Part shown: positions 2,553-32,797 of the stretch, piece by piece
How the letters are laid out: each line of letters starts with the position of its first letter
How positions within the stretch are numbered: position 1 is the stretch's first letter
From: a virus
IMG/VR virus record: IMGVR_UViG_3300011115_000648
Coordinates: 1 to 32,797 of that record
Reading direction: 5' to 3' (one strand)
DNA: 32,797 nt
The notes under the pieces: generated by a model
Seen by the model: only the letters and a program-made list of their open reading frames with translations
The model's database searches: none
What the model was told of the DNA's origin: nothing
Position numbers and translations under genes: made by a program

Positions 2553-2565
2553 TAAACTTTGTTTG
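2553..2565. promoter_or_regulatory. Operator copy upstream of the VRR-NUC gene
   Basis: TAAAC-TTT-GTTTG. On the minus strand a TAAATTTA element (one mismatch to the -7 consensus) follows it, but no TTTG is found at the -33 position, so the promoter is weak or absent. Confidence 0.5.
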
Positions 2566-2573
2566 TGTTTTTG

Positions 2574-3173
2574 CTAACTTTTTTTACTTAAGTTATACAC
2601 ATTCATGGCTGTTCGGTGTTTGTTCTTTTCGGTTTGGTCTAAAAGTTCGCTGGTGCGGTTGCTATCTCCCATGGCTTTGTGTTGGCTTTCTATTTCTTCT
2701 TTAAAATCCATGTAAGCTTTATGCCTTTCTTCCCGATACTTTTCCAACAGTTCAAAGAAGGTAGGGATGTCCATGCGGTCATACACTTTGCCGTATTTGT
2801 TTTTTACCAATCCATCTAAAAAAAGCAAGATGTCTTCCAGTGCCAACTGATCTTCTTCTGCGGATTCTATGAGCATGTAAGCAAGGTCAACCACCTGCTC
2901 AGCGGTCATGCCCACCCGAAGATTGAAGTTGGATAAAGCTTTCTGAATGGCTTTGCTCAGCACTGCACCAACTATGGCTTCCCCATACTTTTTTGCAAGT
3001 GCCGGCAAACGATCTTCCCTTCGTATTTGCTGAATGACTTTTAAGGGAACAGGATTGCCTTTGTCTTTGAATGGGGCAAGCAATGGAACAAGACTATTGC
3101 CCTGCCTGATGCCGTTTAATAATTGCCTCGTTGAGTTGTTGGTCTGTAATGTGGTTAACTCTTGATTTTGCAT
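2574..3173 (-). CDS. Conserved phage protein in replication module, 199 aa
   Basis: Helical, charged protein of 199 residues. A mid-region VVDLAYMLIESAEEDQLALEDI and a block reading YDRMDIPTFFELLEKYREER look like a conserved core; I recognise the type from Bacteroidota phages but not a function. The first 27 codons lie within the 3' end of the upstream initiator-like gene in another frame, an 80-base overlap. No later ATG is available before residue 88, so the overlap is probably real, although a TTG start near residue 29 would remove it. Being next to the initiator-like gene suggests a helicase-loader or replication accessory role (inference). Confidence 0.7.
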   Translation of the reverse strand: MQNQELTTLQTNNSTRQLLNGIRQGNSLVPLLAPFKDKGNPVPLKVIQQIRREDRLPALAKKYGEAIVGAVLSKAIQKALSNFNLRVGMTAEQVVDLAYMLIESAEEDQLALEDILLFLDGLVKNKYGKVYDRMDIPTFFELLEKYREERHKAYMDFKEEIESQHKAMGDSNRTSELLDQTEKNKHRTAMNVYNLSKKS

Positions 3174-3798
3174 GTTCGTTGTTTTTTATTTCAAAAAATC
3201 CTTTCCATCCATTTGCCATTGATTGCTGTATCACGCTGCAGGCAATGCTTTCATTGCCATTGCAAATCTTCACCAGGTTCAATATGGCTGCTTGTTCTGA
3301 TTGCGGGGTTTTGTAGGAAAACTTGTGGTGTGTTTTTTTGTAGTCAATCCATAGCTGCCAATGATTCAAAAAATTTTGCGTTTCAAATGGCATTTTAACT
3401 TTATTTTCTTTTTCAATTATATTTCTATTTTCATTTTCATTTTCATTTTCCATATGATTGCTCATATGTTTATCATATGTTGTATCATATGATGGTATGG
3501 AAGGTTCTTTTTTACCTAACCGATTGTTTTTTCTACTTTCAGTGTAGCTTTTACGCTTGCTCGCTTCCTCATCCAACTTGGCATTAAAAAATAATCCTTG
3601 CGCATCTTGCTGCATTTTTTCCATAATGTCACTATCATATGTTTTACATATGTGCAACACTTGTTTTTCAGAAAGGTGTCCATGTTGGTGCTGAGCGCAT
3701 AATAAACGAATAAATTTCCCTACTTGCTCATCGGTAAAAAACATAGTTCCGGTAAGAAAATCACCAGGATAAAATAGAAAGGCGGGGTCTTTAGCCAT
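3094..3798 (-). CDS. Replication initiator-like protein (DUF1376-type N-terminus), 234 aa
   Basis: The N-terminus MAKDPAFLFYPGDFLTGTMF with FTDEQVGKFIRLLC matches the winged-helix start typical of phage replisome organisers. A low-complexity acidic linker (ENENENENR) leads to a C-terminal helical domain that ends MANGWKGFFEIKN, as in DnaD-like phage replication proteins. An upstream in-frame TTG at 3909 was rejected, because residues between it and this ATG read like untranslated sequence and contain the promoter downstream region. A well-formed promoter with two operator copies lies at 3907-3937. It probably opens or marks the phage origin for replication. Confidence 0.7.
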   Translation of the reverse strand: MAKDPAFLFYPGDFLTGTMFFTDEQVGKFIRLLCAQHQHGHLSEKQVLHICKTYDSDIMEKMQQDAQGLFFNAKLDEEASKRKSYTESRKNNRLGKKEPSIPSYDTTYDKHMSNHMENENENENRNIIEKENKVKMPFETQNFLNHWQLWIDYKKTHHKFSYKTPQSEQAAILNLVKICNGNESIACSVIQQSMANGWKGFFEIKNNEHAKSRVNHITDQQLNEAIIKRHQAGQ

Positions 3799-3906
3799 AA
3801 AATAAAAAGGGGAAGTCTGTGTAGTGAAAAACAGAAATCCCCCAGTTTGATTTAACCAAAAACCAGTCAGCAAATCACTACTTCTGCGGACTGATGTTGT
3901 ATCCTC

Positions 3907-3937
3907 CAAAGTTAAAACTTTGTTTTTGTTTTACAAA
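3907..3937 (-). promoter_or_regulatory. Promoter of the replication initiator-like gene
   Basis: On the minus strand TTTG (3937-3934), a 19-base spacer and TAACTTTG (3914-3907) match the Bacteroidota consensus exactly. Two operator copies overlap it: one in the spacer against the -7 box (3914-3926), one over the -33 box (3934-3946). Confidence 0.75.
3914..3926. promoter_or_regulatory. Operator copy against the -7 box
   Basis: AAAAC-TTT-GTTTT with the exact 11-mer core at 3915-3925. It occupies the same position relative to the -7 box as the copy at 7184-7196. Confidence 0.6.
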
Positions 3938-3946
3938 CTTTGTTTT
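3934..3946. promoter_or_regulatory. Operator copy over the -33 box
   Basis: CAAAC-TTT-GTTTT, 20 bases from the neighbouring copy, about two helical turns, which would put two bound dimers on the same face. Confidence 0.6.
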
Positions 3947-3948
3947 GT

Positions 3949-4218
3949 TTATTGTGCAAAAAAATTTACTTTCCAAAAGTTGACGGTTCTTTGGGTATCA
4001 AAATCTTTGCCCCTGAATGCATGTTGTATTAATCCGAATTGAAGTAATTCTCCTCTGCGTGGAGTAACTCGGTTAATGGGCCAACCCAGTAAGTCAGCAA
4101 TCTGACTATCGTTGCAATTGCCCAATACTTCAATCGCCTTAAAAACGGCTTCTTGTTTTTCATTGATGTTTGTTTTGGCTGCTGCATAAGCAGGTAGGCT
4201 GGTTTGGTAATCGTACAT
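3949..4218 (-). CDS. Winged-helix DNA-binding protein, 89 aa
   Basis: Small winged-helix protein. The core reads KQEAVFKAIEVLGNCNDSQI, then ADLLGWPINRVTPRRGELLQ, then a wing ending TVNFWKV, the layout of MarR or ArsR-like helix-turn-helix proteins often found among phage replication genes. Its ATG shares one base with the stop of the micropeptide gene upstream (TAATG). It may regulate the replication unit; the sequence does not show the target. Confidence 0.75.
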   Translation of the reverse strand: MYDYQTSLPAYAAAKTNINEKQEAVFKAIEVLGNCNDSQIADLLGWPINRVTPRRGELLQFGLIQHAFRGKDFDTQRTVNFWKVNFFAQ

Positions 4219-4280
4219 TAGGATAGTATTAGGTAAAAAATTAGAATGGTAATAATAATTTCAACAATTACTTTTTTCAT
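4218..4280 (-). CDS. 20-residue hydrophobic membrane peptide
   Basis: A 20-codon reading frame giving MKKVIVEIIITILIFYLILS. The sequence is two lysines then one hydrophobic span of about 17 residues, the layout of a single-pass membrane peptide. Its ATG overlaps the stop of the DnaA-like gene as ATGA, and its TAA overlaps the next ATG as TAATG, so it fills the gap between two genes with coupled junctions on both sides. That arrangement is the main reason to call it. The function is unknown; small membrane peptides can modulate ion flux or inhibit membrane enzymes. Confidence 0.6.
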   Translation of the reverse strand: MKKVIVEIIITILIFYLILS

Positions 4281-4648
4281 AAAAACATAATAACGGATTG
4301 ATAATCTCTTTTTACTGCATCATCGTATTTGAGATGACCGGAAAAAGTGCGGACTGCATGAATGATGGTGGTGTGGTCTTTGCCGAATATTTCCCCAATT
4401 GCCTTTAAAGACATATTGGTTTTTTCTCGCAGCAAATACATGATCATTTGTCTGCCGGTAACAATGGCTCGGTAGCGTTCCCTTCGCTTTAATTCATCGA
4501 ATGTAAGCTTGTAATAATCACATACCGCATAGATGATTCTATCCACCAACATTTTGTTTTGGTCTTGCTTTTCAATCAAGCCGGGTATAGCATAGCAGCA
4601 AATATCTATTTTATTGCTGTGGCTATTTTTAACAGTTGCTTCCATCAT
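4277..4648 (-). CDS. Stand-alone DnaA C-terminal (domain IV) protein, 123 aa
   Basis: Contains the DNA-binding domain of the bacterial initiator DnaA without the ATPase. RQMIMYLLREKTNMSLKAIG and the signature GKDHTTIIHAVRTF (from about residue 89) match domain IV, which binds DnaA boxes. The first 35 residues do not match DnaA. Such truncated proteins can bind the phage origin, compete with host DnaA, or act as repressors at DnaA boxes. I saw no clear cluster of TTATCCACA boxes in the early region. The gene shares an identical 21-base leader with its upstream neighbour (4646-4666 and 4933-4953). Confidence 0.85.
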   Translation of the reverse strand: MMEATVKNSHSNKIDICCYAIPGLIEKQDQNKMLVDRIIYAVCDYYKLTFDELKRRERYRAIVTGRQMIMYLLREKTNMSLKAIGEIFGKDHTTIIHAVRTFSGHLKYDDAVKRDYQSVIMFL

Positions 4649-4666
4649 AGTCAGTCGGTTTTTTAA
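4646..4666 (-). repeat. Shared intercistronic leader, copy 1
   Basis: 21 bases identical to 4933-4953, running from the start codon of 4277-4648 back through the stop codon of the previous gene; the common part is ACCGACTGACT just before the ATG. Confidence 0.6.
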
Positions 4667-4935
4667 TTGCTTTTCATTGCCGTCTCAACGGCATTATCAA
4701 TAATTTGTTTCAACTTTTCTAATGTCATATTATAAACAGCAGGCTTTTGAGTAATTGCTATTTCATAATCTGAAATCATTAAATGCTGTAAATCTTCAAG
4801 CCTGTAACGTGGTCTGCCATTTATCCGGCAATAAGGTTTTATTTTCCCAAATCTTTGCCATTGCTTTACAGTTTGTGGCTTTACATTAAAGTAGTTTGCT
4901 ACTTCCTTTCGTGTCATCATTTGATTGTTTTCCAT
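4663..4935 (-). CDS. MerR/excisionase-like helix-turn-helix protein, 90 aa
   Basis: MMTRKEVANYFNVKPQTVKQ followed by WQRFGKIKPYCRINGRPRYRLEDL is the pattern of the HTH_17 family: a helix-turn-helix, a basic wing, then the Y-R-L-E-D-L helix cap. Family members act as excisionases or small regulators. The short C-terminal helix may dimerise. An excisionase usually lies near its integrase, and this gene is about 3 kb away among replication genes, so regulator is as likely as excisionase. Confidence 0.75.
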   Translation of the reverse strand: MENNQMMTRKEVANYFNVKPQTVKQWQRFGKIKPYCRINGRPRYRLEDLQHLMISDYEIAITQKPAVYNMTLEKLKQIIDNAVETAMKSN

Positions 4936-4953
4936 AGTCAGTCGGTTTTTTAA
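4933..4953 (-). repeat. Shared intercistronic leader, copy 2
   Basis: Identical to 4646-4666 and placed the same way, between the SSB-tailed protein gene and the MerR-like gene. Confidence 0.6.
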
Positions 4954-5162
4954 AATGGCAAATCAGTTTCTTCAAGCTTTTGTGGTTGATTATATTGTGG
5001 TTTCTCAAATGGTTTATCTTCCACAATATTGAAGTCCGGATGCTTTGATTCTTTTTTATAGGTATTCACCCACATCGAATATTTTTTGCCTTCAATACTG
5101 AAGCTGATCACTTCGCCTTTTGCTGTTTGCTTGCGCCATGCGCCGATTTTTTGGTTTGTCAT
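4950..5162 (-). CDS. Small protein with SSB-like C-terminal tail, 70 aa
   Basis: The N-terminal 45 residues (TNQKIGAWRKQTAKGEVISF, then KYSMWVNTYKKESKHPDF) look like a small beta-barrel of the kind found in short phage replication proteins. A proline/glutamine-rich linker leads to the final residues EETDLPF, which resemble the D-D-D-I-P-F tip by which SSB recruits repair and replication proteins. The gene overlaps the upstream reading frame by 4 bases and lies downstream of the ERF gene. I infer a minimal ssDNA-binding or SSB-mimic role; the fold assignment is by eye only. Confidence 0.6.
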   Translation of the reverse strand: MTNQKIGAWRKQTAKGEVISFSIEGKKYSMWVNTYKKESKHPDFNIVEDKPFEKPQYNQPQKLEETDLPF

Positions 5163-5593
5163 TTTGGTATTTGAATTTTAAAGGTTACGGTAGATTGTTT
5201 TACAGGTAAGTCGCCTTTGTAGTAGGTCTTTTGAAAGTCCTCAATTTCTTTTTGTTTGGCTTTCAGTTCGTTGATTTGGGCATCTAATTCCCCCCACCCT
5301 TCTATATGTGCAAAATCATATTTGATGCTGCTCATTTCGGCTATTTGCACACCATTGATTTCTGCTTTGCCTTTGGGATATTTGCCCAACTCACTCAGCA
5401 CTTCCTCTGCAATTTTTTCTTTGGCACTCTTTACCAGTTGCTCCATTGCGTTCAAACGAATGGCAACATTTACGGCATTGATATGTCCTTCCCTTACTTG
5501 CTCTGCTATGGTTTCTGCAAGTAGGTCAATGCTGAATTTGGTGGGAGCAATTTCCCCCACCTTATAATCATCAAGCTGTCTTTCTAAGTTCAT
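5159..5593 (-). CDS. Hypothetical recombination-module protein, 144 aa
   Basis: The start at 5593 (MNLERQLDDYKVGEIAPTKF) overlaps the ERF gene by 23 bases; a start at 5638 would add 15 unlikely residues. The protein is helical and charged in its first two thirds (VKSAKEKIAEEVLSELGKYP), with a central NGVQIAEMSSIKYDF strand-like region, a second helix, and a final strand TVTFKIQIP. I do not recognise the family. Lying between the annealing protein and the SSB-like protein, it is probably part of the same recombination unit. Confidence 0.7.
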   Translation of the reverse strand: MNLERQLDDYKVGEIAPTKFSIDLLAETIAEQVREGHINAVNVAIRLNAMEQLVKSAKEKIAEEVLSELGKYPKGKAEINGVQIAEMSSIKYDFAHIEGWGELDAQINELKAKQKEIEDFQKTYYKGDLPVKQSTVTFKIQIPK

Positions 5594-6230
5594 CTTTTTT
5601 GGTTGTAAATTGTGAACGAATATTGTTGGTTTCTGCAAGCTTACTGTTGGTGTGATACAGGGTATTCAACTGCCCAATGGTTTCACAGCTATCCAATACC
5701 ATCAGCAAATCTTCTACGGTTTTGTACTCTGTTTTACAAAGCGCATCTACCGGATTTTCTTCTTGCTTAATTTTTACCGGAGCTTTCACTGGCTTTGGCA
5801 ACACTTCATGGGTGTGGTATTCGGTGTCTAACTTTTCTTCCGTTGGGATTAAAAACATTTGCATCAGTGCATACTTTAATGCAGTACTCATGGCTTTGTT
5901 GGTAGACTTGTCTGCACTGTCCATTGCCTCACCTTCCAGTGTAGATTCAACACAGCTACCATCAACAGTGCAAAACTTAAATTGACACTTGGCAATGGTG
6001 TAAATAAGCGTTCCGCCATTTCTTGTTTGTCGTTCTTCACGCTTGCTCTCTAATACATTCGATACAATGAATACCGAATGCTTTTTAAATAAAGGTTGCA
6101 GTGCATTGTACATGTCATCAATGCCTCTGAACTTGTAGCCCTGTTGGGCATTGGTTTTGCTCTTACCAATAGCCTCCACATCTTGCATGATGTTATTGAG
6201 TGCTTGGTAAATGTTGGTTGTCTGATTCAT
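5571..6230 (-). CDS. ERF-family single-strand annealing protein, 219 aa
   Basis: ERF-type recombinase that anneals complementary single strands during phage recombination or circularisation. The signature is clear: NIYQALNNIMQDVEAIGK, then GYKFRGIDDMYNALQPLFKK (near residues 31-50), then strands with GGTLIYTIAKCQF and the ALKYALMQMFLIPT helix near residue 117. The C-terminal third is a variable tail rich in lysine and proline, probably for partner binding. The ATG lies 38 bases inside the preceding gene. The small genes around it, including the SSB-like one, form its likely operon. Confidence 0.9.
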   Translation of the reverse strand: MNQTTNIYQALNNIMQDVEAIGKSKTNAQQGYKFRGIDDMYNALQPLFKKHSVFIVSNVLESKREERQTRNGGTLIYTIAKCQFKFCTVDGSCVESTLEGEAMDSADKSTNKAMSTALKYALMQMFLIPTEEKLDTEYHTHEVLPKPVKAPVKIKQEENPVDALCKTEYKTVEDLLMVLDSCETIGQLNTLYHTNSKLAETNNIRSQFTTKKDELRKTA

Positions 6231-6417
6231 GGTTGGTTGTTTGGTTAAATAATATTTTTGATTTGATATATCCTTTATTCTTGAACTTATCTATTAGGTT
6301 TTGAACTTCGATGACTGCAACGCCGCTGTAAATCATGGCATCAATAATTTCGCCTAATAGCTGATGCCTTTCGTGTTGCACCATCTCGCACCAGGTGGGC
6401 GGCTTCTGATTATGCAT
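6193..6417 (-). CDS. Hypothetical protein, 74 aa
   Basis: The start at 6417 (MHNQKPPTWCEMVQHERHQL) gives an 8-base overlap with the upstream gene. A longer frame from 6486 would overlap it by 77 bases and adds unlikely residues. The middle is a single helix (LLGEIIDAMIYSGVAVIEVQ) followed by a lysine-rich segment and a polar tail that overlaps the ERF start by 38 bases. The family is not recognised. Confidence 0.6.
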   Translation of the reverse strand: MHNQKPPTWCEMVQHERHQLLGEIIDAMIYSGVAVIEVQNLIDKFKNKGYIKSKILFNQTTNHESDNQHLPSTQ

Positions 6418-6715
6418 GGGATAAAATTTTATTGAGTGAAAGTTGAAGGTTGAATGCATCCACAAAGTGAATGGTGATGTAGTCACTGATGTCGCCTGTT
6501 ACGTAAGGAGATTGCCAGTAGTCTTCCATGTTGAATCTGCCGGAGCTTTGCACGTGGCTGCCGGAGTGATCTGCATGGTTGCTTTCCCAATCCAAACGAT
6601 CTGTGCGGTCTAACCAAGCTTCAAAATCACTGAGGTTAATGTGGCAAGTTTCCTTGTCAGTATCTACTGTTAGAAGGTTGTTGCGGGTGTCTTTGGTAAA
6701 ATCTTGAATGTTCAT
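6410..6715 (-). CDS. Hypothetical early protein, 101 aa
   Basis: Acidic 101-residue protein with several tryptophans and histidines (FEAWLDRTDRLDWESNHADH). It is the first gene after a well-formed promoter at 6732-6763. I recognise no family, signal peptide or membrane segment. Small acidic proteins at the start of early operons can be DNA mimics or host-takeover factors, but nothing in the sequence proves that. Confidence 0.65.
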   Translation of the reverse strand: MNIQDFTKDTRNNLLTVDTDKETCHINLSDFEAWLDRTDRLDWESNHADHSGSHVQSSGRFNMEDYWQSPYVTGDISDYITIHFVDAFNLQLSLNKILSHA

Positions 6716-6731
6716 ATTGGCTTATTTTAAA

Positions 6732-6763
6732 CAAAAATAGTAAAAGATGTTTTACTAAACAAA
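6732..6763 (-). promoter_or_regulatory. Bacteroidota-type promoter for 6410-6715
   Basis: Read on the minus strand, TTTG at 6763-6760, a 20-base spacer and TATTTTTG at 6739-6732 fit the Bacteroidota consensus TTTG-N19-TAnnTTTG. A 27-base block overlapping the -33 box (6750-6776) recurs with one mismatch at the promoter at 12000-12031. Two CAAAC half-sites, 11 bases apart, lie at 6760 and 6771. Confidence 0.6.
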
Positions 6764-6795
6764 CATTTTGCAAACTATTTTTAAAAAAAGTTTTG

Positions 6796-7110
6796 TTAAA
6801 GGTCATCATAGTGGTTTCCACTGGCAATTAATGCTTCATTTTTCAGCCTTACAATACTTTGTTTTTTAAACATTATTCGGTTGCCTTCTCGTATCCAATC
6901 TGCATCCCGTATCAGGTTTTCGTTCACATTCATGCCCGGCAATAATCTTTTTTGCATTCTTACTTGTAGCCATGTTCTGCTACGTTGCAAGAGATTCATG
7001 GCTTCCTTGAAATTGAGATAATTCTTTGATTCCGTAGTAGTTTGGCTCGATTTTAGCCATTCAATATTTTGGTTGAAACGCTTGATTTCTTCGAATTGGG
7101 CGGGAGTCAT
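6796..7110 (-). CDS. Helix-turn-helix early regulator, 104 aa
   Basis: Divergent from the repressor gene and therefore in the position of a Cro-like or early regulator. Residues 32-90 (LNFKEAMNLLQRSRTWLQVR, then IMFKKQSIVRLKNEAL) follow the HTH_17 layout of excisionase-like proteins: a helix-turn-helix, a wing, and a terminal helix beginning with a basic residue plus serine. The first 30 residues are a helix that may dimerise. A near-perfect promoter with an embedded operator lies 68-98 bases upstream. It could also be the excisionase. Confidence 0.65.
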   Translation of the reverse strand: MTPAQFEEIKRFNQNIEWLKSSQTTTESKNYLNFKEAMNLLQRSRTWLQVRMQKRLLPGMNVNENLIRDADWIREGNRIMFKKQSIVRLKNEALIASGNHYDDL

Positions 7111-7177
7111 AAAAATTTTATTTAAAAAATAACAGCAGTTTTAAAAATTTATTTGTACTTTACTTAACGATATGGCA

Positions 7178-7208
7178 CAAAATTAAACAAAGTTTTGCTA
7201 AATACAAA
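7178..7208 (-). promoter_or_regulatory. Early promoter with operator in its spacer
   Basis: On the minus strand, TTTG (7208-7205), a 19-base spacer and TAATTTTG (7185-7178) are an exact match to TTTG-N19-TAnnTTTG. The 11-mer operator core (7185-7195) sits in the spacer and shares one base with the -7 box, so a bound repressor would block polymerase. It drives 6796-7110. Confidence 0.75.
7184..7196. promoter_or_regulatory. Operator copy inside the early promoter
   Basis: TAAAC-AAA-GTTTT, containing the exact 11-mer AAACAAAGTTT that recurs seven times in the window. A related half-site (CAAACTTTTTAAAC) starts 21 bases away at 7205, about two helical turns, so cooperative binding is possible. 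Confidence 0.6.
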
Positions 7209-7246
7209 CTTTTTAAACAAAATTTAAACTAATACCCAAATTGAAT

Positions 7247-7669
7247 ATGCAGCACGAAAATCCCCTACTCGAGCGAGCGGTTCAATATCTTAAAGGAAAA
7301 GGAGAAATCCGAAGGGATATTGAAATTGCAAATGCGCTTGGCTACAACAAAGCCACTGTTAGTTCTTACCTACAAGGCAAGGTAAAGGCATCCCAAAAAT
7401 TTGAAAGAGAATTTGAAAATACTTTTAAAATAAAGTTGACTGATTTTGCTTCGGGAAATATACAAGAAACTATTTTGAAGCCGGATGGATTGCAGTTATT
7501 GAGTGAAGCAATTTTACAAATTAAAGCGGAGTCACAAACGAATCGTCAGCTGTTGGTTGAAGTGCTGGCTGCGACTTCTCAACGCTCTGTGACAGAGATG
7601 CAAGTGTTGGCTGAGAGCTTGCTGCAACGTAATCTAACAAAGATTTTACACGAATTAAAACAGGGATAG
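7247..7669 (+). CDS. XRE-type phage repressor (CI-like), 140 aa
   Basis: The only plus-strand gene. The N-terminal 65 residues carry a lambda-repressor-type helix-turn-helix (RRDIEIANALGYNKATVSSY with LQGKVKASQKF). The C-terminal half is long helices (LLSEAILQIKAESQTNRQLL and on) that probably form a coiled-coil oligomer. There is no LexA-like self-cleavage domain, so induction would need another route. The ATG at 7247 is preferred to the TTG at 7241. Its divergent position, and the operators spread around the early region, make it the likely lysogeny repressor. No clear promoter of its own was found. Confidence 0.75.
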   Translation: MQHENPLLERAVQYLKGKGEIRRDIEIANALGYNKATVSSYLQGKVKASQKFEREFENTFKIKLTDFASGNIQETILKPDGLQLLSEAILQIKAESQTNRQLLVEVLAATSQRSVTEMQVLAESLLQRNLTKILHELKQG

Positions 7670-7679
7670 CGTCCAATTG

Positions 7680-7741
7680 CATACGGTAATTTTCTACAAT
7701 GTTATAGAAAAAATTCGAAACGTATGAAAAAAAAAAAAAAA
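7680..7741. other. Nested hairpin and A15 run between repressor and integrase
   Basis: CATACG (7680-7685) pairs with CGTATG (7721-7726), and inside it TTTTCTA (7690-7696) pairs with TAGAAAA (7705-7711). A run of 15 A follows at 7727-7741. The two convergent genes end on either side, so it may terminate or insulate them, though the A-run is on the wrong side for a standard terminator in either direction. Confidence 0.4.
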
Positions 7742-7750
7742 CATGTTATT

Positions 7751-8830
7751 TTACACATATAGCAGTGCTTCCGCCTGTTGTTTGATGTTTTCTCCGGTTA
7801 AGTGGTAGTACACTTTTACCGTCTTTGCAGATACCCCTAATAGAGCAGCAGTCGTGCTTTCAGGCAATCCCTTACCCGCACACATGCAACCAAAGGAATG
7901 CCTTCCGGAGTGGGTAGTGATATTTTTTTCTATCCCCGCTACCGCTGCAATCCCTTTCAATAACTGATTGCTTTTTTGATTGCTCAGTGGCTTGGGTAAC
8001 TTTTCTATTTTCGCCAACACTTTGGTGAGCGTGATGCCAATGGGTAACACCACAAAGGTTTTGTTTTTCTTTGCCCTCAGCTTCACATAGCCATCTTCTA
8101 CCCTGGTCATATCAAACCGTACCCAATCGCTATGCCTAAGTCCTGTGTAACAGCCAAGCAAGAAATAGCATAAAGTAACGTGCATGGATTTTTGCATGGG
8201 GTAATCCATCCATGCTACCAACTTCTCCAGTTCAGACTCTACCAAGTAAACCCGATCTGATTGTTGGTATTTTGGTTTGGTGTATTGCTCAAAAGGATTG
8301 TCCTTTATCAACCCTTCTTTCTTTGCCTGATTGATGATCCTTCCCACATACTTGAAAGTAATGTTCATCGTATTTTGCGAATACTTTTTTTGTCGTAACC
8401 AAGTCTCAAATTTCCTAAGCCATTCAACCGTTATATCCGTAAGCATTAACTGTGTGCCGGCATAAGCAATGATACGGTTGAGTCTTGTTTGGTCATAGCG
8501 TACTTCCTTTGCATAGACCACAAACAATTTACTTGCAATGGCTTCCCCTTTGATGATACGCTTGGTGAGTTGTATGCCTTGCATTCCCGCATTGATTAAT
8601 TCCCTTTCAATATCGGCTATTTGTCTGCGGATAGATACATTCATCACGTTGGCATTTTCATGCTTCACAACAGCCTTATTCGCATCATTCCATTGGTGAA
8701 TATTTATCCTGAATGGTGTTGGGATGTAGGTTACTTTTCTTTGCACCGTTACTGCAATCTTAATAGAAACCATATCTTGACTGTTTTTTCGATGGGCAAG
8801 AATAACGGGGTGGATGGTAAATTTTTGCAT
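7751..8830 (-). CDS. int: Tyrosine recombinase, phage integrase, 359 aa
   Basis: Integrates and excises the phage DNA at the adjacent att site. An arm-binding N-terminal domain (about 1-95) is followed by a SAM-like core-binding domain (about 100-185) and the catalytic domain. Arg232 lies in GLRHSDW, Lys in AKKNK near 254-257, and His307 and Arg310 in THSGRHSF; Tyr341 in VKVYYHLT is the likely nucleophile. The second box III histidine or tryptophan is replaced by Val333 (LLGVSAKT), a variation tolerated in some relatives. A promoter lies at 8904-8933 and three arm-type repeats lie between it and the ATG, so the integrase may repress itself. Confidence 0.95.
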   Translation of the reverse strand: MQKFTIHPVILAHRKNSQDMVSIKIAVTVQRKVTYIPTPFRINIHQWNDANKAVVKHENANVMNVSIRRQIADIERELINAGMQGIQLTKRIIKGEAIASKLFVVYAKEVRYDQTRLNRIIAYAGTQLMLTDITVEWLRKFETWLRQKKYSQNTMNITFKYVGRIINQAKKEGLIKDNPFEQYTKPKYQQSDRVYLVESELEKLVAWMDYPMQKSMHVTLCYFLLGCYTGLRHSDWVRFDMTRVEDGYVKLRAKKNKTFVVLPIGITLTKVLAKIEKLPKPLSNQKSNQLLKGIAAVAGIEKNITTHSGRHSFGCMCAGKGLPESTTAALLGVSAKTVKVYYHLTGENIKQQAEALLYV

Positions 8831-8845
8831 AAAAATTGATTTGGG

Positions 8846-8880
8846 ACAAACAGTGGGACAAACAAATGCACAAACAAATG
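8846..8880. repeat. Left integrase arm-type repeats
   Basis: Three direct copies: ACAAACAGT at 8846, ACAAACAAATG at 8858 and at 8870, at 12-base intervals. They lie between the integrase promoter and its start codon. Confidence 0.6.
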
Positions 8881-8903
8881 TACTAAATAGCGTTAATAAT
8901 AAC

Positions 8904-8933
8904 CAAAAATAGTTAATTGTTTACAAACTCAAA
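8904..8933 (-). promoter_or_regulatory. Integrase promoter
   Basis: On the minus strand, TTTG (8933-8930), an 18-base spacer and TATTTTTG (8911-8904) fit the Bacteroidota promoter consensus. The predicted transcript starts about 65 bases upstream of the integrase ATG and would pass through the left arm repeats. Confidence 0.55.
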
Positions 8934-8959
8934 ATCGGCTGAAATGCAGTAGGGGCAAT

Positions 8960-8986
8960 AAAAAAACCCCATTTTATTGGGGTTTT
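8960..8986 (-). terminator. Terminator beside the att core
   Basis: AAAACCCC (8963-8970) and GGGGTTTT (8979-8986) form a perfect 8-bp stem with an 8-base loop. On the minus strand it is followed by seven T (A7 at 8960-8966 on the plus strand), so it stops leftward transcription. In the circle it ends the accessory operon; see the finding on integration. Confidence 0.75.
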
Positions 8987-8987
8987 A

Positions 8988-9000
8988 CAAACTTTGTTTG
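8988..9000. promoter_or_regulatory. Perfect palindromic operator copy at attP
   Basis: CAAAC-TTT-GTTTG, the most symmetrical of the seven operator copies. It lies between the terminator and the tRNA-like core. It could be bound by the repressor, or by the integrase, since its minus strand reads ACAAACAAAG like the arm repeats. Confidence 0.55.
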
Positions 9001-9054
9001 TGATCTCGCTGGGACTAATCTTTTCTTTGACTATCAGTTAGTTACAAAGGTTGC

Positions 9055-9077
9055 ACAAACAAATGTACAAACAAATT
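9055..9077. repeat. Right integrase arm-type repeats
   Basis: ACAAACAAATG at 9055 and ACAAACAAATT at 9067, again 12 bases apart and in the same orientation as the left arm. The second copy overlaps the stop region of the gene at 9076-9297. Confidence 0.55.
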
Positions 9078-9297
9078 AAAAGTTTACCCCTTCAATATCC
9101 TTAATAATCTTTTTTGCTGCCTTATTCATTAACTGCTTTTCTTCTGCGGAAAAGTCAATGGGCTTTTTATTTCCATCCAACCCACGAAGCTTATGGTAGA
9201 AGTTGGTTACCTCCGGGCAATAGAGTTTAAAAAATTGGCGTGCAGGTATTATCCTAAAAAATTCTTCTCTCGTCATTGGGGCAATTTTCTTGTGCAA
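9076..9297 (-). CDS. Hypothetical accessory protein, 73 aa
   Basis: Last gene of the accessory operon, ending at the right arm of attP. It is basic and helical (MTREEFFRIIPARQFFKLYC, then SAEEKQLMNKAAKKIIKDIE). No family is recognised. It is the gene nearest the prophage end after integration, a place where phages often carry lysogenic-conversion or immunity genes, but the sequence does not show such a role. Confidence 0.65.
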   Translation of the reverse strand: MHKKIAPMTREEFFRIIPARQFFKLYCPEVTNFYHKLRGLDGNKKPIDFSAEEKQLMNKAAKKIIKDIEGVNF

Positions 9298-9318
9298 GAT
9301 AATTGTTTTTTTTATTTA

Positions 9319-9651
9319 TTAATTTAAAGAATGAACATTGTAATGTTTTTGCAATATTGATTTTACCTCTTCATATTTTATTTTAGTATAATCGTAAAGA
9401 AATATTCCCATCAACTCAACTTCTCCTTTTTTGAAATTTGCATTTGCAACAGCTTCAACAACTTCATTTGTAACCAATCTTACATTTATCAATTTTGGCA
9501 TCATATTAAAATTGTAATTTTTATCCCTTTCGGCAATACCAAACAATAAATCTAAAATGGCATCTAATTGACCACAGTATAATATATTTTCATTTTCAGG
9601 AGTTACCCAAATAATATTTTTTCTTTTTAATTCAATTTGTAATGCTTCCAT
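9319..9651 (-). CDS. Hypothetical accessory protein, 110 aa
   Basis: A mixed alpha/beta protein of 110 residues without a recognised family. It begins MEALQIELKRKNIIWVTPEN and has two hydrophobic strands (KLINVRLVTNEVVEAVAN and VELMGIFLYDYTK) with a helical end. No signal peptide or membrane segment. It is separated by 21 bases from the next gene and 49 bases from the previous one. Confidence 0.65.
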   Translation of the reverse strand: MEALQIELKRKNIIWVTPENENILYCGQLDAILDLLFGIAERDKNYNFNMMPKLINVRLVTNEVVEAVANANFKKGEVELMGIFLYDYTKIKYEEVKSILQKHYNVHSLN

Positions 9652-9700
9652 AATTTATTTTTAATAGGTACAAATTTGAAAAATTGCGTCAACACATCTA

Positions 9701-9916
9701 TTAACTCAATAATCTTTCTTCCGGTATAAATCCTGTGCCTGCTGATCTTCCAGTTGCACGTATAAAATCAACTTCTATTTTGGCACTATTGACAATCACC
9801 TGTGCAACATCTGCAATAGACTTTGCTCTCTCTATTTCCATTGGTTTTTCTTCATCTTGCAAAGCTTCAAGCGTTGCAAATAAATGGTTGCGTAAATCTT
9901 CAATCTTGTTTCTCAT
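9701..9916 (-). CDS. Conserved small phage protein, 71 aa
   Basis: Helical protein beginning MRNKIEDLRNHLFATLEALQ and continuing with a long helix (ERAKSIADVAQVIVNSAKIE), ending TGFIPEERLLS. I have seen this pattern in phages and prophages of many bacteria, always without an assigned role. The start overlaps the HNH gene's 3' end by 17 bases, consistent with cotranslation. Confidence 0.7.
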   Translation of the reverse strand: MRNKIEDLRNHLFATLEALQDEEKPMEIERAKSIADVAQVIVNSAKIEVDFIRATGRSAGTGFIPEERLLS

Positions 9917-10535
9917 GAATACTTCTTTTTAATTTGTTGACTAATTTTATGGTTGATTTTAATTCAGTTGGAAAACGGTGTATGCTATTGCGCTGCATGT
10001 TTTCTTTTTTGGTTATCAGTTCAAGGTTATCCAGTGCAATGTTCATCGGGTTTTTATCTTTGAAAACAATGATGTATCCTTCAGAAATTTTGCCGTTTGA
10101 TTGCTCCCATACATGCCGATGTTTTAATACATACTTTCCTTTGTCTATGCGCATTTCAAGGTAACCGTCTTTGCTAATTCTTTCATGTCCATTGTACTTG
10201 GTATTGTGTGGCTGATTGCCTTTCTTAAACATCGTCAGCTTTGCTTTTTCATATACCGCTTCAGGCATTTGCTTGCCCTTATTAACAGGTAGATGACCTT
10301 TACTATACCTACTATTTACTCCAATTATTTTAAGCCTTTCAGCTTGCTTTTGCAATTCCATTTTTAAAAACGATGGAGATTTTTTCAACCTCATCAAATT
10401 GGCTTGTGCAAATACAGATGACAAAGAACGGTTGAGTTTTGTAGCAATTTCTATGGTGTAATTATCGGCATACATTTCAGCAACAATTGCACGCTCCTGG
10501 TCTGTCCATAACCGTCTTTTATATTTTTGTGGCAT
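9900..10535 (-). CDS. HNH homing-type endonuclease, 211 aa
   Basis: An N-terminal helix-turn-helix resembling a Myb or resolvase-type domain (RRLWTDQERAIVAEMYADN, then TIEIATKLNRSLSSVFAQA) is joined by a basic linker to an HNH_3-type nuclease. The nuclease reads KHRHVWEQSNG, then GYIIVFKDKNPMNIALDNLE, then LITKKENM near residues 140-185. The start at 10535 (MPQKYKRR) gives a 17-base overlap with the gene upstream; the 3' end also overlaps the next gene by 17 bases. Free-standing proteins of this type copy themselves into related phages. Whether it targets a neighbouring gene here is unknown. Confidence 0.85.
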   Translation of the reverse strand: MPQKYKRRLWTDQERAIVAEMYADNYTIEIATKLNRSLSSVFAQANLMRLKKSPSFLKMELQKQAERLKIIGVNSRYSKGHLPVNKGKQMPEAVYEKAKLTMFKKGNQPHNTKYNGHERISKDGYLEMRIDKGKYVLKHRHVWEQSNGKISEGYIIVFKDKNPMNIALDNLELITKKENMQRNSIHRFPTELKSTIKLVNKLKRSIHEKQD

Positions 10536-10785
10536 TGGTAAATGTTTCGTTGTAGTATTGATTAAATGACTTGCCACCTTGCTCTGTGCATTTCATTCCC
10601 CCTTGCCAAAATTCAAACGCTTTTTTTCTTTCCTTTTCTTTTTCTTTTTCACATTGAGTTTTGATTTCTTTTAGCATTTTATGAAATACTCTCATTGAAA
10701 TTTCAACTCCATTTTCAAAATCCATTTCAACTATTTTAAGTTGAAAATCTACTTTATCAATTATTTTGTCTATTGATGTTTTCAT
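10519..10785 (-). CDS. Hypothetical accessory protein, 88 aa
   Basis: Charged helical protein (KMLKEIKTQCEKEKEKERKK) that ends FNQYYNETFTNATKI. The phrase QYYNET also occurs in the next gene upstream (10782-11258), so the two may share a short motif or be distant relatives. The start overlaps that gene by 4 bases. No function is recognised. Confidence 0.65.
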   Translation of the reverse strand: MKTSIDKIIDKVDFQLKIVEMDFENGVEISMRVFHKMLKEIKTQCEKEKEKERKKAFEFWQGGMKCTEQGGKSFNQYYNETFTNATKI

Positions 10786-11258
10786 AGTTTATTTTTTAAT
10801 TGTTCTCTATAAAGTTTCATACCTTCTATAACCCATGCTCTTTTTTGGTCATTATATAAGACATATTCTTTTGCTACTTTCTCTATCTCCTCATCTGATA
10901 TTTCTGTTTGGTTTTGTTTACCAATTTTAATAACACAGTCCATACATATATTATGTGTAGGTTTAGCTTCATCACAATTTATGCAATCTGATATTTCTGT
11001 TATAACTTTACTTTTTGATTGGTTTTGTAAAGAAATACCTTTACTTCCATAGGTTTCGTTGTAGTATTGTTCTGCTTGTTTATCGAAGATTTTTCCTAAT
11101 GCTATCATATTAGGTGTTTTACCATCCTTACCGTAAGCAGACCTATGAGCATCTATTATCTGTTGCTTCTCCATTTCTTTGGCTTTGTCAAAAACTTTTC
11201 TTCGGTTTTCATCAATATTTGCAAATTGACTTTCTAACCATTCTACTGCTGTTTGCAT
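10782..11258 (-). CDS. Zinc-ribbon-like accessory protein, 158 aa
   Basis: The first 75 residues (AVEWLESQFANIDENRRKVF, then EKQQIIDAHRSAYG, then EQYYNETYG) are a helical domain I associate with small Bacteroidota phage proteins of unknown role. The middle has CINC and, twelve residues on, CMDC, a likely zinc ribbon, followed by a helical end. It shares a 17-base intercistronic leader with its downstream neighbour (10783-10799 and 11256-11272). Confidence 0.7.
   Translation of the reverse strand: MQTAVEWLESQFANIDENRRKVFDKAKEMEKQQIIDAHRSAYGKDGKTPNMIALGKIFDKQAEQYYNETYGSKGISLQNQSKSKVITEISDCINCDEAKPTHNICMDCVIKIGKQNQTEISDEEIEKVAKEYVLYNDQKRAWVIEGMKLYREQLKNKL
10783..10799 (-). repeat. Second intercistronic leader, copy 1
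   Basis: CATAGTTTATTTTTTAA on the plus strand, identical to 11256-11272. It spans the start codon of 10519-10785. A similar leader precedes 11269-11478. Confidence 0.5.
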
Positions 11259-11272
11259 AGTTTATTTTTTAA
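11256..11272 (-). repeat. Second intercistronic leader, copy 2
   Basis: Identical to 10783-10799, spanning the start codon of 10782-11258 and the stop codon of the gene before it. Confidence 0.5.
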
Positions 11273-11478
11273 AGGTTTTGAATTTCAGTTTTTACATTTT
11301 GCCAATACTTGTATGGCATGATAGTTTGCCCATCATCAATATCAACCAGTTCATCCATGATTTCATCTACTGCTATCAATGCACATTCTTTGGCTTGGAT
11401 TTTTGTTAATGACCAATAAAGAATGTCATGCTGACTGTACCTATGGATTAATGCTTCCGCTTTTTCTTTTGGTGTCAT
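11269..11478 (-). CDS. Conserved small phage protein, 69 aa
   Basis: MTPKEKAEALIHRYSQHDIL followed by AKECALIAVDEIMDELVD and a polar end. This K-A-E-x-L ... C-A-L-I-A-V-D-E-I pattern is frequent in small proteins of Bacteroidota phages; the role is unknown. Its leader (11479-11573) has an unusual long-range inverted repeat, see the feature at 11492-11566. Confidence 0.7.
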   Translation of the reverse strand: MTPKEKAEALIHRYSQHDILYWSLTKIQAKECALIAVDEIMDELVDIDDGQTIMPYKYWQNVKTEIQNL

Positions 11479-11491
11479 AGTTTAAGTTTTT

Positions 11492-11566
11492 AAAAAACTC
11501 CTGCCCTCTTCAAATAACTACCAATCAACCACCAAGTTTTTTAATAATGATTATGGTAGGGCAGGA
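11492..11566 (-). terminator. Candidate attenuator in the accessory operon
   Basis: On the minus strand TCCTGCCCT (11566-11558) can pair with AGGGCAGGA (11507-11499), and the second arm is followed by GTTTTTT, as in an intrinsic terminator. A competing pair, CTACCA with TGGTAG (11554-11559 and 11518-11523), overlaps the first arm, so two folds exclude each other. The 50-base loop is unusually long. It lies between 11574-11780 and 11269-11478. Confidence 0.45.
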
Positions 11567-11573
11567 ATAAGCT

Positions 11574-11780
11574 TTATAATTTTATAGATCGTACAACAAC
11601 TGTTCTGCCATTGTACTCAAATCGTTTTTTATTCAATGGATTCATGGCTTTGCGAACTGCATCATGATGTATGTTTAGCATTCTGCTTGCTTTTGAAATA
11701 GATTGTATAATAATGGTCTCTTGTGTATCAATGTAAATCATGCGCAGCTTGATGGCATTTTCCAATCCTTTGACTTGCAT
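11574..11780 (-). CDS. NUMOD1-like DNA-binding protein, 68 aa
   Basis: Small basic protein starting MQVKGLENAIKLRMIYIDTQ. Residues 25-60 (IQSISKASRMLNIHHDAVRK, AMNPLNKKRFEYNG) have the helix-turn-helix pattern of the NUMOD1 modules found next to homing endonucleases. An HNH nuclease lies 1 kb downstream in the same operon, so it may be a detached module or an operon regulator. The short frame from the ATG at 11780 is chosen over a longer one from 12041, which would cover the membrane-protein gene and the promoter. An operator copy lies four bases from the start. Confidence 0.65.
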   Translation of the reverse strand: MQVKGLENAIKLRMIYIDTQETIIIQSISKASRMLNIHHDAVRKAMNPLNKKRFEYNGRTVVVRSIKL

Positions 11781-11782
11781 AA

Positions 11783-11968
11783 TTAAACAAAGTTTGCATC
11801 CTGTAAATAAGCCGCCACACAGCCAATTAATACAATGGTGAAGATTGCCCTTATTTTTTTGGAAACTTTGTAATGGTCTATAACAGTGATGTACAATGCA
11901 TATACAATCAATGGAGACGAGATAATAATGCACAAAATAAAGTACAAAATGCGGAGTGTCTTTTTCAT
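11783..11968 (-). CDS. Small membrane protein, 61 aa
   Basis: Two predicted membrane segments: residues 6-27 (RILYFILCIIISSPLIVYAL) and about 39-54 (IRAIFTIVLIGCVAAYL), joined by a short basic loop with HYKVSKKIR. First gene of the accessory operon after the promoter at 12000-12031; the next gene starts 2 bases after its stop. Small two-span proteins expressed from prophages can block superinfection at the membrane, which would suit the position, but nothing in the sequence shows it. Confidence 0.65.
   Translation of the reverse strand: MKKTLRILYFILCIIISSPLIVYALYITVIDHYKVSKKIRAIFTIVLIGCVAAYLQDANFV
11784..11796. promoter_or_regulatory. Operator copy at the 11574-11780 start
   Basis: TAAAC-AAA-GTTTG with the exact 11-mer core. 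It overlaps the last codons of the membrane-protein gene. On the minus strand TAATTATG, a one-mismatch -7 box, follows it directly, as in the stronger promoters. Confidence 0.5.
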
Positions 11969-11999
11969 TTGGTTGGTTTGATTTGGTTAAATGATAACA

Positions 12000-12031
12000 C
12001 GAAATTAGTAAACAATATTTTACTAACCAAA
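12000..12031 (-). promoter_or_regulatory. Promoter of the accessory operon
   Basis: On the minus strand, TTTG (12031-12028), a 20-base spacer and TAATTTCG (12007-12000) fit the consensus with one mismatch. The block 12018-12044 is a near copy of 6750-6776 at the early promoter (one difference in 27 bases). Confidence 0.55.
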
Positions 12032-12049
12032 CATTTTGCAAACTTTCTT

Positions 12050-12062
12050 TAAACTTTGTTTA
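12050..12062. promoter_or_regulatory. Operator copy upstream of the accessory promoter
   Basis: TAAAC-TTT-GTTTA, a perfect palindrome outside the three central bases. A related half-site CAAACTTTCTTTA starts 11 bases away at 12039, one helical turn. Confidence 0.5.
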
Positions 12063-32514: not shown

Positions 32515-32694
32515 TTATACTTTCTCCAAATCAGGTCTTTCATAATCACTTAACTCTACCTTCTGACCACCACGAACAATTGCCAACTGTTTGCTATTTG
32601 CTGCCAACGCTTTATTGATTGCTTCCCTTTCTGCAATTAACCATATCTCTTGCTCTCTTAATGTCATCTTATTAAATCCTTTTGGTTTTCTCAT
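32515..32694 (-). CDS. Hypothetical basic protein, 59 aa
   Basis: Product MRKPKGFNKMTLREQEIWLI... ending DYERPDLEKV. A basic start, an amphipathic helix (REQEIWLIAEREAINKALAA) and an acidic end. Its ATG is in the contig overlap; on the closed circle it follows the gene at 30-209 by 5 bases. The tandem repeats 32481-32513 begin directly after its stop. Unknown family; the helix could bind DNA. Confidence 0.65.
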   Translation of the reverse strand: MRKPKGFNKMTLREQEIWLIAEREAINKALAANSKQLAIVRGGQKVELSDYERPDLEKV

Positions 32695-32797
32695 AGGAGT
32701 TAGTTTAAAAATTTAACAGGAAGCCAATTCCATCTTACCCATAATTGTATCCAATATCCTTCAACCTTTACAAATTCTAACCATCTTGTTTCATTGC
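32671..32797. repeat. Right copy of the 127-bp terminal redundancy
   Basis: Exact copy of bases 1-127. It contains the 5' end of the 59-residue gene at 32515-32694 and a second copy of the 3' part of the gene at 30-209. Neither gene is interrupted once the circle is closed at this overlap. Confidence 0.95.

Follow-up and report, generated by a model that had tools for sequence, protein, structure and literature searches.

The window analysed here, 32,797 nucleotides of viral DNA spanning positions 1 to 32,797 of IMG/VR record IMGVR_UViG_3300011115_000648, contains exactly seven copies of the 11-mer AAACTTTGTTT, five of which lie in early promoter regions. With a probability somewhat better than even, these five serve as operators for a dimeric repressor that the phage itself encodes. 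The most likely candidate is the XRE-type protein encoded at 7247–7669, which would bind them cooperatively and block early promoters. The observation is genuine, the gene-control system is a fairly ordinary one for a phage, and the phage belongs to freshwater Chitinophagaceae-type bacteria.

Copies of the word in a complete phage genome

The first ~127 bases of the window recur at its end (1–128 and 32670–32797), and the phage genome is therefore complete and circular, with a length of about 32.67 kb. Start positions of the genes were assigned manually. The exact copies of the word are these:

2554–2564, plus strand: putative operator copy in front of the VRR-NUC gene, whose ATG is at 2537
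3915–3925, plus strand: putative operator copy, flush against the -7 box in the promoter of the O-like replication gene
3935–3945, plus strand: putative operator copy overlapping the -33 box of the same promoter
7185–7195, minus strand: putative operator copy, flush against the -7 box in the leftward promoter of the HTH_17-like gene, in the intergenic region between the repressor and HTH_17-like genes
8989–8999, plus strand: copy in the attachment site
11785–11795, minus strand: copy at the 3' end of ORF 11783–11968
12051–12061, plus strand: putative operator copy upstream of promoter P11968

A first-pass annotation had described seven exact copies at these positions, all but that at 11785 intergenic and none between 12.1 and 32.7 kb, with well under one copy expected by chance, and the recount agrees on each point. 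The expected number is 0.18, and none of 100 shuffles reached seven. Six copies fall within the 2.4 kb of intergenic DNA (71% A+T), where 0.05 are expected, and in 400 shuffles of this DNA no 11-mer of at least three letters exceeded four copies. The scan of 12.1–32.7 kb yielded zero copies of AAACTTTGTTT, an absence that is real since the genome is complete. Apart from these seven the window has no AAAC-N3-GTTT word, and in each of them N3 is either TTT or AAA; the centre of the word is thus conserved as well as its arms. The palindrome AAAC-TTT-GTTT is common to all of them, but the longer form put forward earlier, CAAAC-N3-GTTTG, occurs in full only at 8988.

The copies differ in their surroundings. 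By shuffling the flanks we obtained, for each site, the P value for a second or degenerate copy nearby; this is 0.004–0.09 for the five promoter-associated copies (2554, 3915, 3935, 7185 and 12051, which represent four early promoter regions), 0.33 for 8989 and 0.56 for 11785. Partner copies are found 11–30 bp away beside all five, although only weakly beside 2554, and the spacings of 11, 20 and 21 bp noted in the first-pass annotation are among them, with 30 bp occurring also. The copy at 11785 has no partner site, is compatible with the chance rate, and may be a chance occurrence. The proposal of a seven-site regulon is thus partly supported, for the five copies at early promoter regions; as 8989 is mostly attachment-site and tRNA-Lys sequence, and 11785 is partnerless and possibly due to chance, the putative operators number five, not seven.

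Predicted promoters that carry or adjoin the word

A -33/-7 promoter consensus is documented for Bacteroides (PMC7366714), and promoters in the window were predicted by matches to its boxes, TTTG and TAnnTTTG. The predicted promoters and the features around them are as follows:

3094–3798, minus strand: O-like replication gene behind P3798 (phrog_678, E 6e-5)
3907–3937, minus strand: promoter P3798, TTTG-N19-TAACTTTG, perfect consensus match
7178–7208, minus strand: promoter P7110, TTTG-N19-TAATTTTG, perfect consensus match
7215–7225, minus strand: degenerate partner AAACAAAATTT, one mismatch, 30 bp from 7185
6732–6763, minus strand: promoter P6715, TTTG-N20-TATTTTTG
6738–6757, no strand assigned: second palindrome TAGTAAA-N6-TTTACTA, perfect, in the P6715 spacer
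6772–6793, no strand assigned: degenerate tandem pair AAACTATTTTT and AAAAAAAGTTT, upstream of P6715
12000–12031, minus strand: promoter P11968, TTTG-N20-TAATTTCG, one mismatch in the -7 box
12006–12025, no strand assigned: second palindrome TAGTAAA-N6-TTTACTA, perfect, in the P11968 spacer
12040–12050, plus strand: degenerate copy AAACTTTCTTT, one mismatch, 11 bp from 12051

Two copies had been said to sit against the -7 boxes of well-formed promoters, and this is borne out at P7110 and P3798, both of which match the TTTG-N19 consensus perfectly on the minus strand. At P7110 the copy at 7185 is accompanied by the partner at 7215 (P 0.02). At P3798 the second copy is itself exact, with 3935 lying 20 bp from 3915 (P 0.004–0.012), and its GTTTG arm supplies the TTTG of the -33 box. 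We propose that a dimeric repressor, most likely the 7247–7669 product, would bind the AAAC-TTT-GTTT palindrome, cooperatively with another copy, in many cases a degenerate one, at a distance of one to three helical turns. Binding would occlude the -33 and -7 boxes of P7110, and so block transcription of the HTH_17-like gene and probably of an early operon, and would block replication functions at P3798 in the same manner. The excess of the word in the genome and in intergenic DNA, its conserved centre, the copies abutting the -7 boxes of two perfect promoters, and the presence of partners at the promoter-associated copies together with their absence at the attachment-site and in-gene copies all support this interpretation. 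The orientation of the word relative to the -7 box is mixed (sense at 7185, antisense at 3915), as it may be for a dimer site.

Control would be less direct in the upstream regions of 2537 and P11968. Copy 2554 adjoins a weak -7 box, TAAATTTA (2545–2552), and its partner TAACTTTTTTT, 21 bp off, is poor (P 0.09). Copy 12051 and its partner at 12040 (P 0.03) align with the degenerate tandem pair upstream of P6715, and at both P11968 and P6715 the AAAC copies are positioned upstream of the -33 box and not in the spacer. This arrangement speaks against the repressor interpretation, as the spacers of these two promoters carry the other palindrome and activation would be equally possible there. The two promoters with TAGTAAA-N6-TTTACTA have upstream sequence in common, and this palindrome may belong to another regulator.

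The upstream position of the P11968 copies would also suit a promoter-type spacer or upstream element of the phage, read by host RNA polymerase or by an activator, in place of an operator. The same idea draws support from G398-type phages, where the word is inside a conserved 47-bp module, co-directional with the genes, with a -33 TTTG and a -7 TAATATTG. We nonetheless consider such an element quite improbable, in that the window copies occur in both orientations relative to the -7 box, the palindrome and paired copies are more operator-like, and the word is not enriched in two genomes of the likely host lineage. In these, AAACTTTGTTT occurs 13 times in 2.4 Mb (G001) and 19 times in 2.5 Mb (G002), and is no commoner than a reversed control word (29 and 22 copies, respectively); 17 of the 20 host-lineage copies examined fall in ORFs. 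Occurrence at the background rate in these two genomes indicates that the word is phage-specific.

The location of 3915 and 3935 just upstream of the O-like gene raises a further alternative, in which the copies would serve the O-like initiator as replication iterons. There is a precedent in other phages (L023, L027, L032, L037, L047 and L066), in which the same 11-mer recurs every 21–24 bp inside O-like replication initiator genes, apparently as origin iterons. For the window this is very improbable, however, as the copies lie at promoters dispersed across 9.5 kb and the O-like gene has no copy of the word inside it, but has instead an internal cluster of CATATG (3451, 3463, 3474 and 3486) beside an A-rich run. 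CATATG is repeated at 11–12 bp intervals at 3451–3491 and 3636–3652 within this gene, and these repeats are likely the replication origin iterons.

The attachment site and the candidate binding proteins

The attachment site and three genes are relevant to copy 8989 and to the identity of the protein that would bind the operators:

6796–7110, minus strand: HTH_17-like protein, divergent (HTH_17 E 0.0011, below cut-off), possible Cro or excisionase
7247–7669, plus strand: XRE-type putative repressor, 140 aa, with no peptidase domain
7751–8830, minus strand: tyrosine integrase, with Pfam Phage_integrase, SAM-like and arm-binding domains
8992–9016, minus strand: attP core, a 25-bp identity with Chitinophagaceae genome G001 that covers the 3' end of tRNA-Lys(UUU) and sequence flanking it downstream

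The attP 25-mer is present in G001 alone among 396 Chitinophagaceae genomes. Eight of the 11 bases of copy 8989, which has no partner site, are inside this attB identity, and the copy is therefore mainly attP core. The notion that the word is integrase or attachment-site sequence is true of this one copy, where the core consists of the tRNA-Lys 3' end plus AAACAAAG, but is hardly credible for the set, since the other copies are far from attP and the repeats that probably bind the integrase arm domain consist of another word, ACAAACAAAT. Direct repeats of ACAAACAAAT flank attP at 8841–8879 and 9050–9076, and are probably the integrase arm sites. Just beyond the attP core on the phage side there is a C-rich hairpin (AACCCC...GGGGTT) with a T run, which could replace the tRNA terminator.

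The 7247–7669 protein is likely XRE-type, judging from its sequence. Its HTH_3 match is sub-threshold (E 0.006) and no HMM match exceeds a curated cut-off, and its first ~65 residues are 43% identical to a Chitinophagaceae HTH_3/Peptidase_S24 protein. This resemblance to the DNA-binding part of an S24-type repressor supports the operator interpretation. Against it count the want of an HMM match over a curated cut-off and the poor single-sequence structural model (pLDDT 43); the models of both this protein and the HTH_17-like protein are too poor for a fold search. We regard the XRE-type protein as a reasonable candidate binder, and favour it on account of the palindromic form of the site and the pairing of its copies.

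The HTH_17-like protein could act instead as a Cro- or Cox-like regulator, repressing its own and other early promoters and serving as excisionase at attP. Its own promoter, P7110, carries the word, a point that also counts against the XRE-type protein; one copy is at attP as a Cox-type protein would explain, and it has the weak HTH_17 match. In another phage (L083) the word precedes a small HTH-like gene whose product weakly matches Phage_Cox. We judge this role unlikely, if far from negligible. The attP copy is mostly explained by the tRNA-Lys attB identity and is partnerless, a better HTH_17/excisionase candidate is encoded at 4663–4935, and MerR-type excisionases tend toward direct repeats, not palindromes. 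No result separates the XRE-type protein from the HTH_17-like protein as the putative binder.

Searches of viral contigs and phage records yielded no homologue of the XRE-type repressor, and a search of viral contigs likewise yielded none for the HTH_17-like protein. Among the 396 Chitinophagaceae genomes, two match the DNA-binding part of the repressor at E 0.001 or better and none matches the HTH_17-like protein. The locus of the repressor's best Chitinophagaceae match has repeated GTTCTAA-type words (read by eye) in place of the window's word.

The word in other phages and in known operator systems

A scan of viral sequences for paired copies returned 55 stretches. Among those read by annotation are iterons within replication genes, repeats in the coding sequence of a coiled-coil-like protein, and intergenic modules. 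The intergenic modules are found in phages with a terminase about 50% identical to that of the window; the Bacteroidota-type phages L075–L079, L082 and L084–L086 share a conserved promoter module, 47 bp long, in which the 11-mer is embedded, with up to five per genome (G398; IMGVR_UViG_3300040793_000007). As in the window, G398 and its relatives have the 11-mer with a TTT centre flush against the -7 box and a second copy, perfect or degenerate, over the -33 box, and the module is repeated four to five times in the best-covered genome. In G398 four promoters score 59–66 bits against it and a fifth scores 42 bits; at the fifth the degenerate module precedes a small protein gene. These phages differ from the window in that all copies are co-directional and belong to a conserved module of greater length, neither of the window's regulators has a detected homologue in them, and no integrase domain was found in G397–G400, some of these records being fragments. 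The occurrence of the word against the -7 box in repeated promoter modules of integrase-less phages, with the degenerate module before a small protein gene, lends support to its proposed role as an operator. P7110 scores 15.1 bits against the G398 module, barely above the best shuffled intergenic DNA (14.9 bits), and we do not take this as proof of common descent.

Relatives with the same replication gene (L003–L009) argue against the operator interpretation, as they do not have the word in the stretches scanned; the full records of three of them contain 0, 0 and 1 copies. A separate scan for TTTG...AAACNNNGTTTTAnnTTTG returned 53 contigs, most with a single AAAC-N3-GTTT in the stretch scanned, and was judged to be background. 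A literature search for the 11-mer and its complement gave no phage regulator topic among the titles listed, and one for prophage repressors with operator sites in Bacteroidetes found nothing on the subject in the collection searched.

Among characterised systems, mycobacteriophage BPs with its dispersed operators comes nearest. The short BPs repressor gp33 (103 or 136 residues) represses several promoters through a 12-bp palindrome, exact copies of which lie in a number of small intergenic regions and are each accompanied by a degenerate partner (PMC4557955). The window is similar in having a short putative repressor and an exact palindrome repeated in intergenic promoter regions, with partners beside the copies other than 8989 and 11785 and with promoter overlap at P7110 and P3798. 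The word and spacing differ, the BPs operator being CGACATATGTCG with 5 or 8 bp between half-sites; the BPs attP is inside the repressor gene, whereas that of the window is 1.3 kb from it; and binding was measured for the BPs repressor, whereas for the window it is predicted from the sites. The sites are also reminiscent of the L5 stoperators in being scattered over the genome and mostly intergenic. Stoperators are asymmetric, number about 24, and have one orientation relative to transcription (PMC5712189), whereas the window sites are palindromic, of mixed orientation, and at early promoters only; with a palindromic core on both strands, the L5-type arrangement was rejected as a misfit.

It is rather improbable that AAAC-TTT-GTTT is a promoter-operator element common to unrelated temperate and integrase-less Bacteroidota phages that share no phage regulator; were this true, it would imply either that a host factor is conserved or that phages have converged repeatedly on a palindrome in which the GTTTG arm also serves as the -33 box. 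For the phage itself, an 11-bp site, two promoters with the site flush against them, and one candidate repressor would constitute a small and directly testable lysogeny switch, which can be compared with the integrase-less phages in which the same site recurs.
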